Source: a virus. From it: DNA of 29,037 nt. Each line of letters starts with the position of its first letter. The first letter of the stretch is position 1. Positions 850 through 4,618 of this stretch are shown here, piece by piece. Under the pieces are notes generated by a model. That model was given only the letters and a program-made list of their open reading frames with translations, was not told where the DNA came from and searched no databases. Where the stretch lies: positions 1-29,037 of the IMG/VR virus record IMGVR_UViG_3300025131_004927. One strand, written 5' to 3'. The position numbers and the translations under genes were made by a program.

Positions 850-1285
850 AAAGAAGAGTCTATTTGACCACATAAAACAAATCACAGATGTTCAGAGTCC
901 TAATTATTGGGATGACATCTCTGATGATGATAAAAAGTCGTGGTCTAACTATATGGTTAATAGATTTCTATCTATGAAAATGGATTGGGTTGAGCTTGTT
1001 AATGAGGTTCAGAGATATCCATTACAACCAAAAGACTTATACAAAGTTTATACAGACATTTTACCAAAGAAAAAACAATGGTTAAAATATGTCAAAGGAG
1101 ATAAGAAAATGAAATATCCAAAATGGGTTTATGAAATTGTGGCTAAACACTTAGAGGTTAGTCTTAGAGAAGCATCCCAAGCGGTTGAAACATATGAGAT
1201 GTCACATGGTGGTCAAGCTGAGTTAATTGATATACTTGTTAAGTATGGTAAAACAGAGGATGAGTGTCGTAAGATTGGATTATGA
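836..1285 (+). CDS. 62: Clamp-loader small subunit, T4 gp62-like
   Basis: 149 residues, matching in shape the short gp62-like proteins of marine T4-like phages. The best signature is the NYMVNRFLS segment at residues 38-46, followed by the KKKQWLKYVK stretch near 78-87. Both resemble the MVNR...LS and KKKR..KW blocks remembered from cyanophage gp62. gp62 is the non-ATPase partner that completes the clamp loader with four gp44 subunits. AGGA at 827-830 precedes the ATG by 5 bases. The start overlaps the zinc-ribbon gene by 14 bases, so the three genes look co-translated. The family is very divergent, so the call rests on the motif plus the position after gp44. Confidence 0.75.
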   Translation: MATVKKKSLFDHIKQITDVQSPNYWDDISDDDKKSWSNYMVNRFLSMKMDWVELVNEVQRYPLQPKDLYKVYTDILPKKKQWLKYVKGDKKMKYPKWVYEIVAKHLEVSLREASQAVETYEMSHGGQAELIDILVKYGKTEDECRKIGL

Positions 1286-1917
1286 GTGTTACCGACTTCA
1301 CAGTTGAGTACATAAATCGAAAAGCGCTTGTTAGCTTTATAGAGAAAAATCACTATTCACATAATGTAAATGGGATTCAATCATATCACCACTTCGGCTT
1401 ATACACAGAGGGTAACTTTGGATTACCTAAAATGATTGGTGCTATGATGTATGCTATGCCATCAATGCCACATACAGCAGCTAAGTACAATCCTATTAAT
1501 CCCACTAGGTGTATGGAGCTGAGAAGGTTATGTTGTATTGATGATACACCCAAAAATACAGAGAGTTATTTTATAGGTAAAACTTTGAGATGGCTAAAAC
1601 AGAATACAGATATAGAGGTTATAGTTTCTTTTGCTGACCAACATTATGGTCATGCTGGTACGATTTATAAAGCTAGTAACTTTGATTATTTAGGTGAAAC
1701 TGCAGCTGGTCAGGTATTAATGGTAGATGGTAGAGAGATGCACAGCCGTTCTTTAAACCAAAAAAATCGACCTTATGGTAGAGAGTTAAAACGGAGATAT
1801 GATGAAGGTGATCCAAATATATTTTTTAAGAAGAGAAAACCAAAACATATTTATACATACTATCTAAATAAAAAAATTAAAAGACAAATAAAAAATGATA
1901 TCGCTAGAAATGGTTAA
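1282..1917 (+). CDS. mom: Mom-like DNA adenine-modification protein
   Basis: A 211-residue member of the Mom family. Phage Mu Mom converts adenine in DNA to a carbamoylmethyl-adenine and protects the genome from restriction. Visible features are an N-terminal H24-Y-S-H27, a GAMMYAMPS strand, ELRRL at 79-83, and the family core VSFADQHYGHAGTIYKASN at 115-133 followed by LGETA. These match the GNAT-like fold of Mom, and the length is close to the usual ~230 residues. The C-terminus is very basic (KKRKPKH...KKIKRQIK), suitable for DNA contact. ATGA overlap with the gp62-like gene places it in the replication operon. Substrate and product here are inferred from the family. Confidence 0.85.
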   Translation: MSVTDFTVEYINRKALVSFIEKNHYSHNVNGIQSYHHFGLYTEGNFGLPKMIGAMMYAMPSMPHTAAKYNPINPTRCMELRRLCCIDDTPKNTESYFIGKTLRWLKQNTDIEVIVSFADQHYGHAGTIYKASNFDYLGETAAGQVLMVDGREMHSRSLNQKNRPYGRELKRRYDEGDPNIFFKKRKPKHIYTYYLNKKIKRQIKNDIARNG

Positions 1918-2494
1918 TACACAATCAGCTGCAAACTTAGTAAAGAAGATTATTAATAACCATCATTCTTATGTTCCCAGTCATAAATCTGTCGGAAGAA
2001 GAATTGATTGGTTAGTATACCATTCTGATTATACTAATATATTGGGTGTTGAAAAGCCTATTGGTATGATTGGAATTGGTTCTTCTGTTTATCCTTGTCC
2101 TAAAGATATATTAAATCATTTAGGTAAAAAGGCAGATGAATATAAAGAACCAGCATATTTTAATACTATAGCGAATAACTGGAGATTCTGCATGACAAAA
2201 TCAATAAAAAATGCAGGAACACAGATATTGAAACAGGTTAGAAAACAAGCACCTATAGAATGGAAGAAAAAGTATGGAGATGATTTAAAATGGTTGATTA
2301 CCTTTGTAGCTGGTGGCAACAATGGTGCTGTATACAAAGCAGACAATTGGAAGCAGATTGGTGAAACAGCTGGATTAGCAAAAGAAAGAAAATCATTTTC
2401 AGTAAAGTGGAGTAGTGCTGAATATTTGAAAGAAACTTTTTTACCACCGACTGGTGAAAATAAGAAAATAATTTTTATAAAAAGACTTGACTAA
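1895..2494 (+). CDS. DruA/DUF4338-like protein, distant Mom paralog
   Basis: 199 residues. The block NNWRF (94-98), the following N-rich helix, and TFVAGGNNGAVYKADNW (136-152) with GETAG resemble the DUF4338 domain found in DruA of the Druantia defence system. There the typical pattern is NxRFL...LETFVD...GtcYkAaNW..vG.T.G. The same C-terminal stretch is also visibly parallel to the Mom-like neighbour (aromatic-A...G-x-[IV]-YKA-x-N-[FW]...GETA), so both probably share a GNAT-like core. The start is uncertain: ATG 1895 overlaps the Mom gene by 23 bases and lacks a clear ribosome binding site, and ATG 1910 is an alternative. A role in DNA modification is inferred from fold and position. Confidence 0.65.
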   Translation: MISLEMVNTQSAANLVKKIINNHHSYVPSHKSVGRRIDWLVYHSDYTNILGVEKPIGMIGIGSSVYPCPKDILNHLGKKADEYKEPAYFNTIANNWRFCMTKSIKNAGTQILKQVRKQAPIEWKKKYGDDLKWLITFVAGGNNGAVYKADNWKQIGETAGLAKERKSFSVKWSSAEYLKETFLPPTGENKKIIFIKRLD

Positions 2495-2539: not shown

Positions 2540-2947
2540 ATGAGTGATACAATAAAAGAATCTAAAACAAAAAAGAAGTATACAAATCAGTATGGGAATA
2601 AAAAAAGTACTGATATTGTAACAATGATGGAACAAGAGTGGCCGCAGATGACTGCTGAATTTCGTAGGTTACAAAGAGAACAATATGAGTTGTTCCTACA
2701 TAAACAACACGACTATGGTCCAGGTAATATTTCAGTTGGAACACAATTACAGACGCCAGAAGAAATACAATTATCACTTACAGGTTTGTGGTTTAGGATG
2801 AATGATAAGATTCAGAGATTAAAGAATCTATTGATGAGTGGTAGAGATAATGCAGTGCAAGACGAACCATTGGAAGATGCTTTTCTTGATGTATCTAATT
2901 ATGGTATTATGGCTACAATTGTAAAGAATGGTAAGTGGGGTAAATGA
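2540..2947 (+). CDS. DUF1599-like (nucleotide-modification-associated) protein
   Basis: A 135-residue protein. The motif HDYG (57-60), then WFRMNDKIQRL (85-94), then an acidic LEDAFLDVSNY (111-121), match the layout of the DUF1599 family. That family pairs an HxxYG element with RxxDKxxRL and a D-rich helix, is all-helical, and has been linked by genome context to nucleotide or base modification. The start is taken at ATG 2540 because GGAGGAG lies 4 bases before it. An in-frame ATG at 2516 has no ribosome binding site and would overlap the -10 box. Placement after the Mom-like and DruA-like genes supports a nucleotide-pool or DNA-modification role, but the biochemical function is unknown. Confidence 0.65.
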   Translation: MSDTIKESKTKKKYTNQYGNKKSTDIVTMMEQEWPQMTAEFRRLQREQYELFLHKQHDYGPGNISVGTQLQTPEEIQLSLTGLWFRMNDKIQRLKNLLMSGRDNAVQDEPLEDAFLDVSNYGIMATIVKNGKWGK

Positions 2948-3780
2948 AGAAAATAAGTTATAGTCAATACTCATTGTGGAAACAATGTCCTTACCAATGG
3001 AAGATACAATATGTGGATGGTATAAGAGAGTATACGGACAGCATCCACACAATGTTTGGTACTTCGATGCACGAGGTCATTCAAACCTTTCTTACAGTAA
3101 TGTATAATGATACTGCTAAACTAGCAGAACAATTGCCATTAGAGGATATGTTGCGAACTAGGATGAAGCGTAACTTTGAAGAGATTGTTAAGGCTAATGG
3201 TGGTGAGATGTTTTGTAGTGAGAAAGATATGGTTGAGTTTTATACTCATGGTGTACAGATACTAGACTTTATAAAAAAGAAAAGAGCTCAGTATTTTAGT
3301 AAGAAAGGTTATGAGTTGATTGGCATTGAAGTTCCATTGAACTATGATTTACCGAACAATCTAAAATTTGTTGGGTATATAGACATAGTAATTAAAGATA
3401 CAGTTAGAGATGTGATTAAGATATACGATATAAAGACATCTACTATGGGTTGGAATAAATGGGTGAAGGCTGACAGTAATAAAACAGATCAGTTGTTACT
3501 TTATAAACAATTTTATGCTAAACAATTTAATCATCCTATCGATAAGATAGAGGTTGAGTATTTTATTGTTAAAAGAAAATTGTATGAGAAGGTAGATTTC
3601 CCACAGAAGAGAGTTCAAAAGTTTGTTCCCGCAAATGGCAAGCCGAGTATGAATAAGATGATTGCTAGATTCAAAGAGTTTTTAGATGCCACATATGATG
3701 ATGAAGGTAATATTAAAGAAGTTGAATATGAAAAGTGTGTTGGCAAGTGTAAAGCTTACAACAAATGCAAAGACCTATAA
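2944..3780 (+). CDS. PD-(D/E)XK nuclease, Cas4/RecB exonuclease type
   Basis: A 278-residue nuclease of the RecB/Cas4 branch. In order: the helix motif SQYSLWKQCPYQWK (7-20), FGTSMHE with H43, the catalytic GYID (D147) and YDIK (D162, K164), and the QLLLY motif (Q183, Y187). A cysteine at 15 plus C265, C269 and C275 near the end match the one-plus-three layout that holds a 4Fe-4S cluster in Cas4 and AddB proteins. Related nucleases are common in marine T4-like phages and are probably used in recombination or DNA processing. No CRISPR array or other Cas gene is present, so there is no reason to call it a Cas protein. It starts with an ATGA overlap. Confidence 0.87.
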   Translation: MKKISYSQYSLWKQCPYQWKIQYVDGIREYTDSIHTMFGTSMHEVIQTFLTVMYNDTAKLAEQLPLEDMLRTRMKRNFEEIVKANGGEMFCSEKDMVEFYTHGVQILDFIKKKRAQYFSKKGYELIGIEVPLNYDLPNNLKFVGYIDIVIKDTVRDVIKIYDIKTSTMGWNKWVKADSNKTDQLLLYKQFYAKQFNHPIDKIEVEYFIVKRKLYEKVDFPQKRVQKFVPANGKPSMNKMIARFKEFLDATYDDEGNIKEVEYEKCVGKCKAYNKCKDL

Positions 3781-3810: not shown

Positions 3811-4245
3811 ATGAAAGTAAATCTGAGAATGAATTTATCTCATTTTTTAAATGAGCCATATGAAGAAGAGATTATAAATAAGCTCGGTATCATACATAAA
3901 GATTCTATAAAATATTACTTGACATTGTGGTATGAAGATGGTAAATTAAAACCAGCTGAATTAAAAAGCTTTATAAAAAAGTATGAATCCAAATTGTATT
4001 TTAAGACTAATATAGTAGTTGGTTGTGAATTGTCCACTAATGATTTTATATGGTTCGATATAATTGATAAAAATAATGCTCATAAGACTAATAGACATAG
4101 GTTTCAGTATATTTATAATAAGAAAGAAGATATACTAAATGGTTTAGATGAGTATCACAAATGCGCTAAATTCTGTACATCAGAAAAACCACCTAAAAGG
4201 CAAAAGAGGAACGACTATGAAAGTAGCAATAATAGGAAGTCGTAA
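3811..4245 (+). CDS. Hypothetical protein
   Basis: A 144-residue protein I do not recognise. It is charged, with no membrane segment; a WYEDGKLKPAEL segment is followed by a beta-rich middle (VVGCELSTNDFIWFDI) and a basic, probably disordered tail (KPPKRQKR). ATG 3811 is chosen because AGGAG at 3799-3803 sits 7 bases upstream; a GTG immediately before it at 3808 is in frame. It follows a 30-base gap after the nuclease and overlaps the next gene by 29 bases. Confidence 0.65.
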   Translation: MKVNLRMNLSHFLNEPYEEEIINKLGIIHKDSIKYYLTLWYEDGKLKPAELKSFIKKYESKLYFKTNIVVGCELSTNDFIWFDIIDKNNAHKTNRHRFQYIYNKKEDILNGLDEYHKCAKFCTSEKPPKRQKRNDYESSNNRKS

Positions 4246-4618
4246 ATACGAAAATAAGAGAAGGGTACAAGAGTTCATCTACAAGCTCAAAGAGAAATGG
4301 GGTGATGAATTAGAAATAGTAAGTGGTGGTCAAAAAGATGGCGCTGATGGATATGCTAAAAAGTATGCTTTGGAATTTGATTTAAAATATTCAGAATTTC
4401 CACCTGCTCATTATCAGTATAACCAACATTGTGTGTTGGAAAGTTATAAGTATGGTAAACCTTATGCTGTCTGGCATTACCATAGTAGAAATAAAGATCT
4501 GATTGAATATTCAGATGTAGTTGTAGCATTCATACCAAAGGGAATCACATCTAAGGGAACAAACTCAGCTTTAAACGAAGCTGTAAAAAATGAAAAAAAA
4601 TATGTAATAATAAATTAG
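4217..4618 (+). CDS. SLOG-family protein, DUF2493/YspA-like
   Basis: 133 residues with a Rossmann-like N-terminal strand MKVAIIGSR (G7, S8, R9) and SGGQKDGAD at 36-44, the nucleotide or base-binding signature of the SLOG superfamily (YspA/DUF2493 branch). Relatives bind nucleotide ligands or cleave nucleotide or base derivatives, and the family is often seen near phage-conflict and nucleotide-modification genes. The start at ATG 4217 is supported by AGAGGA at 4205-4210; upstream in-frame ATG 4148 lies deep in the previous gene and has no site. Its ligand here is unknown. The context beside modification-type genes suggests processing or sensing of a modified nucleotide. Confidence 0.75.
   Translation: MKVAIIGSRKYENKRRVQEFIYKLKEKWGDELEIVSGGQKDGADGYAKKYALEFDLKYSEFPPAHYQYNQHCVLESYKYGKPYAVWHYHSRNKDLIEYSDVVVAFIPKGITSKGTNSALNEAVKNEKKYVIIN

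Follow-up and report, generated by a model that had tools for sequence, protein, structure and literature searches.

Organization of the locus

The DNA analysed here (hereafter the window) is a 29-kb record from a virus of bacteria. It opens with a series of genes on one strand, among them those for a protein of the Mom family (MomA) and a compact protein of the DruA/DUF4338 family (DruL), distantly related to the defence protein DruA:

2–601, + strand: clamp-loader large subunit, cut by the start of the window (phrog_168, E 9.8e-37)
598–849, + strand: zinc-ribbon protein with CxxC pairs in its sequence; core operon gene, kept in Microcystis phage Mel-JY01
836–1285, + strand: clamp-loader small subunit, its end overlapping the start of MomA (phrog_225, E 5.7e-15)
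1282–1917, + strand: MomA, Mom-family GNAT enzyme, 211 aa (Pfam PF25680, E 3.1e-45; phrog_1384, E 5.9e-57)
1895–2494, + strand: DruL, compact DruA/DUF4338-family protein, 199 aa, Mom homologue by sequence (PF14236; phrog_1384, E 9e-7)
1895–1917, + strand: 23 bases shared by the end of MomA and the start of DruL (from ORF coordinates)
2540–2947, + strand: DUF1599 protein, "Nucleotide modification associated domain 1" (PF07659, 27.4 bits, cut-off 25); kept in Mel-JY01
2944–3780, + strand: PD-(D/E)XK exonuclease of the replication module (PF12705, E 3.7e-21; phrog_69 exonuclease)

The two ORFs of 211 and 199 aa lie exactly where the first-pass annotation had located them. The start of the DUF1599 gene, a core gene of the operon, was picked by eye (ATG at 2540, with a GGAGGA site before it). 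DruL also starts within the end of Mom in relatives, and the 23-base overlap suggests translational coupling. Because MomA overlaps both the clamp-loader small subunit and DruL, the three genes are probably translated as one unit. The clamp-loader setting, described earlier as an operon enclosing the pair, proved real and general, with the correction that the pair sits at the end of the clamp-loader genes and that a further Mom gene lies upstream, outside the window.

Two features further along the window were also recorded. A YspA-like SLOG-family protein (4148–4618; PF10686, E 2e-9) is retained in close relatives. A stretch of ~24 kb (5091–29006) consists of same-strand genes whose matches are glycosyltransferases, methyltransferases, sugar epimerases, a sulfotransferase and an aminotransferase, and by these matches it looks like a phage-borne surface-polysaccharide cluster.

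MomA is a canonical Mom

MomA scored 154.8 bits against the Pfam Mom family over residues 5–205 (cut-off 27.1), and its only match by sequence in the PDB was Mu Mom (8bv8, E 2e-14). Its AlphaFold model (pLDDT 86.5) aligned with 8bv8 at a Z score of 19.8 and an rmsd of 2.8 over 181 residues, and the next GNAT reached a Z score of 14.9. Using wild-type Mu Mom from NC_000929 as the reference, we mapped H24, R82, S95, D119, Y129 and N133 of MomA to H58, R111, S124, D149, Y159 and N163 of Mu Mom; the title of 8bv8 names S124A as an inactive mutant. The gene is under purifying selection (dN/dS 0.10–0.20). With PF25680, phrog_1384, the alignment to 8bv8 and all key residues in agreement, the identification of the first protein as a Mom, previously made from the sequence alone, is certain. 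For phage Mu it is established that Mom modifies adenine in the phage DNA and thereby evades host restriction (PMC6483171).

DruL belongs to the DruA/DUF4338 family

The DUF4338/DruA name given earlier to the second protein was right. DruL of the window scored 26.9 bits against PF14236, and 27.2 bits in a second search, which places it at the cut-off of 27; its orthologues reached 39.7 bits, and DruL2, a 37% identical paralogue encoded beside DruL in a related record (L007), reached 60.6 bits. A DUF4338 domain from a Thiodictyon plasmid, fused to an ISAs1-type transposase, scored 91.2 bits and matched DruL at E ~2e-8 and DruL2 at E 7e-18 in a small comparison set. DruL stayed below the cut-off of the Pfam Mom profile (13.7 bits against 27.1). 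It is also under purifying selection, with dN/dS of 0.12–0.18. One row of the dN/dS comparison, for the clamp-loader small subunit of the window against L006, was left out because its coordinates were wrong. Profile searches had been named as the check that could show the second protein to be unrelated to Mom or DUF4338, and they did not do so.

A type I Druantia system, in which druA is accompanied by druB, druC, druD and druE, was not found around DruL, whose neighbours are replisome genes, and PADLOC returned no match for the MomA and DruL proteins. The lack of druB–E neighbours and of a PADLOC match rules out a Druantia system at this locus.

Homology of DruL and Mom and the altered active site

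The Mom protein carries the pattern SFADQHYGHAGTIYKASNF..LGETA (residues 116–141) and the second protein TFVAGGNNGAVYKADNW..IGETA (residues 136–159). Profile comparison supported the kinship that this common pattern had suggested by eye. The Mom family phrog_1384 matched DruL at E 9e-7 and the DruL copy of another record (L012) at E 1.5e-8. An hhalign comparison of a DruL alignment (A1) with a Mom alignment (A2) gave a score of 51.6 (E 4e-7), against a mean of 14.4 (sd 3.1, maximum 36.6) for 200 column-shuffled A2 controls and 11.5 for reversed A2. The aromatic-A...YKA...GETA pattern is thus real and beyond chance. The likeness, first described for the YKA core, spans most of the protein, including the H, R and N..S/T sites. 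Judged by these comparisons, DruL and Mom are homologous. A 19-sequence tree split Mom from DUF4338 at 100/100, with DruL on the DUF4338 side; because some branches are long, only this split was used. Together with BLAST, the tree rules out DruL as a recent tandem copy of MomA.

H24, R97, T109, Y147 and N151 of DruL correspond to Mu H58, R111, S124, Y159 and N163. Across MomA, DruL, DruL2, the bacterial DUF4338 domain and a second Mom (MomB, described below), the positions of Mu H58, R111, N121, S124, G156, Y159 and N163 are identical, except that S124 is replaced by Thr in DruL and DruL2. The Mom-type residues kept by DruL are invariant across its family, truncated copies aside. All Mom copies have the Asp of the SFAD motif (Mu D149), as does the bacterial DUF4338 domain (TFVD); among the 42 readable DruL copies the position is always A or G (A139 in the window), and in DruL2 it is K. 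The bacterial domain, encoded at L086 2896–4230 in fusion with an ISAs1-type DDE transposase, keeps this Asp, so the Mom-type set is complete in at least one bacterial DUF4338 member and altered at a single position in DruL.

This change makes an altered chemistry or substrate likely for DruL, which may be inactive or may do something else. DruL could be a non-catalytic protein of the Mom/DruA fold that binds DNA, a modified base or Mom itself, as a specificity factor or reader. Loss of the SFAD Asp from 42 of 42 copies fits such a role, as does the position of Mom, adjacent or one gene away in all close relatives. We nevertheless consider it unlikely: R97, T109, Y147 and N151 are invariant, which would be unexpected in a dead enzyme, and DruL thrives in records with no detectable Mom. 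The retained catalytic-type residues likewise argue mildly against the earlier suggestion that one enzyme makes the mark and the other purely reads it.

Structure prediction, proposed as a comparison of both proteins with Mu Mom, was informative for MomA, which matches 8bv8, and not for DruL, whose model was poor (pLDDT 62) and matched at noise level. For this weak model, the best Z scores in structure comparison (VIA) were 2–3.3, with GNATs and epimerase-type folds mixed and 8bv8 at 2.8, and the best Foldseek E values were 0.54 (PDB) and 0.21 (viral). DruL is therefore assigned to the GNATs from its sequence homology to Mom and from the DUF4338 domain of DndF, which the authors of that study call a GNAT (PMC10853773).

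Mom and DruL genes are cargo in a replisome operon

A related virus record (L002/G002), at least 99.97% identical to the window over 17.5 kb, extends the operon upstream. Its gene order is PolB, sliding clamp, MomB, clamp-loader large subunit, zinc-ribbon protein, small subunit, MomA, DruL, DUF1599 and PD-(D/E)XK, so that MomB, a second Mom (Pfam Mom, E 8e-44), lies between clamp and clamp loader, upstream of the window. Mom accompanies DruL in all 11 close relatives, which amount to some six or seven lineages once near-copies are removed, and DruL adjoins Mom or lies one gene away in each. Five consecutive genes of the superfamily are found in L007 (5307–8547), namely DruL2, DruL, MomB, MomA and a third Mom (MomC) that runs off the contig; another record (G008) carries an unlinked third Mom.

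In the isolate Microcystis phage Mel-JY01 this operon occurs with MomB, MomA and DruL missing; the identities are 48% for PolB, 41% for the large clamp-loader subunit, 40% for the zinc-ribbon protein, 50% for DUF1599 and 44% for PD-(D/E)XK. The Mom and DruL genes are thus cargo in a replisome operon, and the zinc-ribbon and DUF1599 genes, kept in Mel-JY01, are part of the operon itself and not partners of Mom. Since both are core genes in a phage without these Mom genes, we rejected a Com-like regulation of Mom by the zinc-ribbon gene (598–849) as well as a partnership of DUF1599 with Mom. In Mel-JY01, the stretch from DUF1599 to the exonuclease holds other genes (L091 13290–15881): an S-adenosylmethionine synthase and an ORF with the motifs FAGIGG...GGFPCQD, which we take to be a C5-cytosine methyltransferase signature. 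Differing DNA-modification genes therefore occupy about the same region in these phages.

The usual substrates of GNATs are amines of proteins and small molecules, which would favour a reading of DruL as an acetyltransferase of such targets and not of DNA. We regard this as highly improbable, as Mom, the characterised protein closest to DruL by sequence here, acts on DNA, and the other cargo genes of the operon encode DNA-modification enzymes.

DruL and related genes in other phages

No Mom was detectable in 22 of the 34 virus records with DruL that were searched, most of which are fragments; a 173-kb record (G012) encodes DruL and a long DruA-like protein with no Mom match. DruL thus occurs without detectable Mom, so the two do not form an obligate pair, which also speaks against an obligate pair of writer and reader. 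The dedicated pairing of Mom with a DruA-like partner envisaged by the first-pass annotation does not hold, given these 22 records and the arrangement in the phage group of the window, which is Mom, Mom and DruL.

T4-like records carry DruL between gp33 and gp59/gp32. Directly behind DruL, most of them encode a conserved 244-aa protein (L022 6592–7323 and relatives; absent in L013, L014, L035 and L042). It has a D-x12-S-x-K pattern, could be a nuclease, and found no match in the PDB search or in any library scanned. A DruL copy 59% identical to that of the window (L044 3139–3699) lies in a neighbourhood that looks phage-like, on a contig assigned by binning to a horse-gut Bacilli genome, and DruL is therefore not limited to marine phages. 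A tblastn search of 50,697 phage records with DruL found no match, and neither PF14236 nor the controls matched in 195 genomes of one bacterial phylum.

Longer DruA-like genes recur in cyanomyoviruses. In 13 of 14 Synechococcus myoviruses checked, such a gene lies between the two clamp-loader genes gp44 and gp62; in S-PRM1 and S-CAM9, where the annotation lists the small subunit as a hypothetical protein, we assigned it from its size and position. Only S-B68 differs, with the gene near gp47, and in the pelagiphages Mosig and HTVC008M it lies near recombination endonuclease genes. The Synechococcus-phage proteins are 350–385 aa long; five of six copies scanned scored 35–46 bits against PF14236 and that of S-T4 scored 21.6. 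S-SSM7 has both Mom and a DruA-like gene, unlinked. That the proteins of S-PRM1 and its relatives have a DruA-like fold was noted by the Phold authors (PMC12774648), and the annotation of the S-SCSM2R copy reads "methylcarbamoylase mom"; parts of the link were thus visible before.

This distribution bears on two further readings of DruL, which we judge about equally improbable. First, DruL and the mobile DUF4338 proteins might aid DNA replication, recombination or mobility without covalently marking DNA. DruL and DruA-like genes do adjoin genes for the clamp loader, gp59/gp32 and gp46/47, and a bacterial DUF4338 is found fused to a transposase; Mom homology and the retained residues weigh against such a helper, as does the fact that these genes are optional in otherwise equal operons (Mel-JY01). 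Second, DruL might be a counter-defence mimic of DruA that disturbs Druantia, or some comparable system, in the host. Membership of the Pfam family named for DruA agrees with mimicry, and there is a precedent in the phage factor Druad1, which according to a review escapes type I Druantia because it promotes methylation of the phage DNA at specific sites (PMC12904381). A decoy, however, need not retain catalytic-type residues, and the genes stand in replication operons, not in an evident anti-defence cluster.

A model for DNA marking at the replisome

We favour, with a probability of roughly 0.5, a model in which the phage DNA is marked by Mom, DruL acts as a further DNA acyltransferase linked to replication, and both are cargo in a replisome operon. 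MomA would modify N6 of adenine in the phage DNA with an acyl-derived group, which is carbamoylmethyl in the case of Mu, and by analogy with Mu this mark would protect the DNA from host restriction. DruL, from the DruA/DUF4338 branch of the GNAT superfamily, would most likely acylate DNA as well, at a target or with a product of its own. With the Mom and DruL genes inserted as cargo in the polymerase, clamp and clamp-loader operon, co-production with the replisome would let both enzymes act on newly copied DNA. Our analysis shows family membership, homology, residue conservation, purifying selection, the operon and which relatives have or lack the genes; the activity of MomA and DruL, the chemistry of DruL, the replication coupling and the anti-restriction role are inferred. 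The operon position could reflect the timing of expression alone. The first-pass annotation was thus confirmed in what it observed and partly supported in how it read this: it named the families correctly, but Mom and DruL do not form an exclusive pair, and their joint role is putative.

The common active-site plan of Mom and DruL suggests that DruA-type proteins may also be DNA-modifying enzymes. We tentatively extend this, as a possibility that we hold less likely than the model itself, to DruA/DUF4338 as a whole. The family would consist of Mom-type DNA acyltransferases, several of which (Mom, Mom paralogues and DruL) phages would stack on the replisome operon to put more than one acyl mark on newly copied DNA, and DruA of type I Druantia would be a base-modifying enzyme. 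The residue-level link to Mom makes the function of DruA/DUF4338 directly testable in the laboratory, and the DruL family provides small proteins, 200 aa in length, that are convenient to handle. The repeated placement of Mom- and DruA-type genes in clamp-loader operons by phages suggests replication-coupled DNA marking. Among the papers searched, none joined Mom and DruA. New here are the residue-level Mom–DUF4338 link, the multi-copy arrays, the cargo status established through Mel-JY01 and the recurrent clamp-loader location.

Comparison with known systems

MomA shares family, fold and residue set with Mu Mom; it differs in its setting, a replisome operon without Com, whereas Mu mom overlaps com. 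DruL is also homologous to Mu Mom and retains the H, R, N, S/T, G, Y and N positions, but in the tree it branches outside the Mom group, and the SFAD Asp is missing. With DruA/DUF4338 (PF14236) it has the NxRF, TFV and Y[KR]AxNW motifs in common, a likeness read through the Pfam family; unlike DruA of type I Druantia, it is only ~200 aa long and has no druB–E neighbours. DndF contains the same Pfam domain, there fused at the N-terminus of a phosphorothioate-linked defence protein (PMC10853773), whereas DruL is free-standing. The Synechococcus-phage proteins are, like DruL, a phage DruA family in a clamp-loader operon; they are longer, have much diverged C-terminal motifs, and are encoded between gp44 and gp62, whereas DruL follows the small subunit. 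Mom adjoins an annotated type II REase in DSL-LC03, and in jumbo phages Mom domains are fused to REase domains (PMC7824862). Together with a GNAT/ABC ATPase system, these jumbo-phage fusions represent phage GNATs proposed, as here, to acyl-modify DNA bases (PMC7824862); the window differs in having neither an REase fusion nor an ABC ATPase neighbour, and its setting is the replisome operon.
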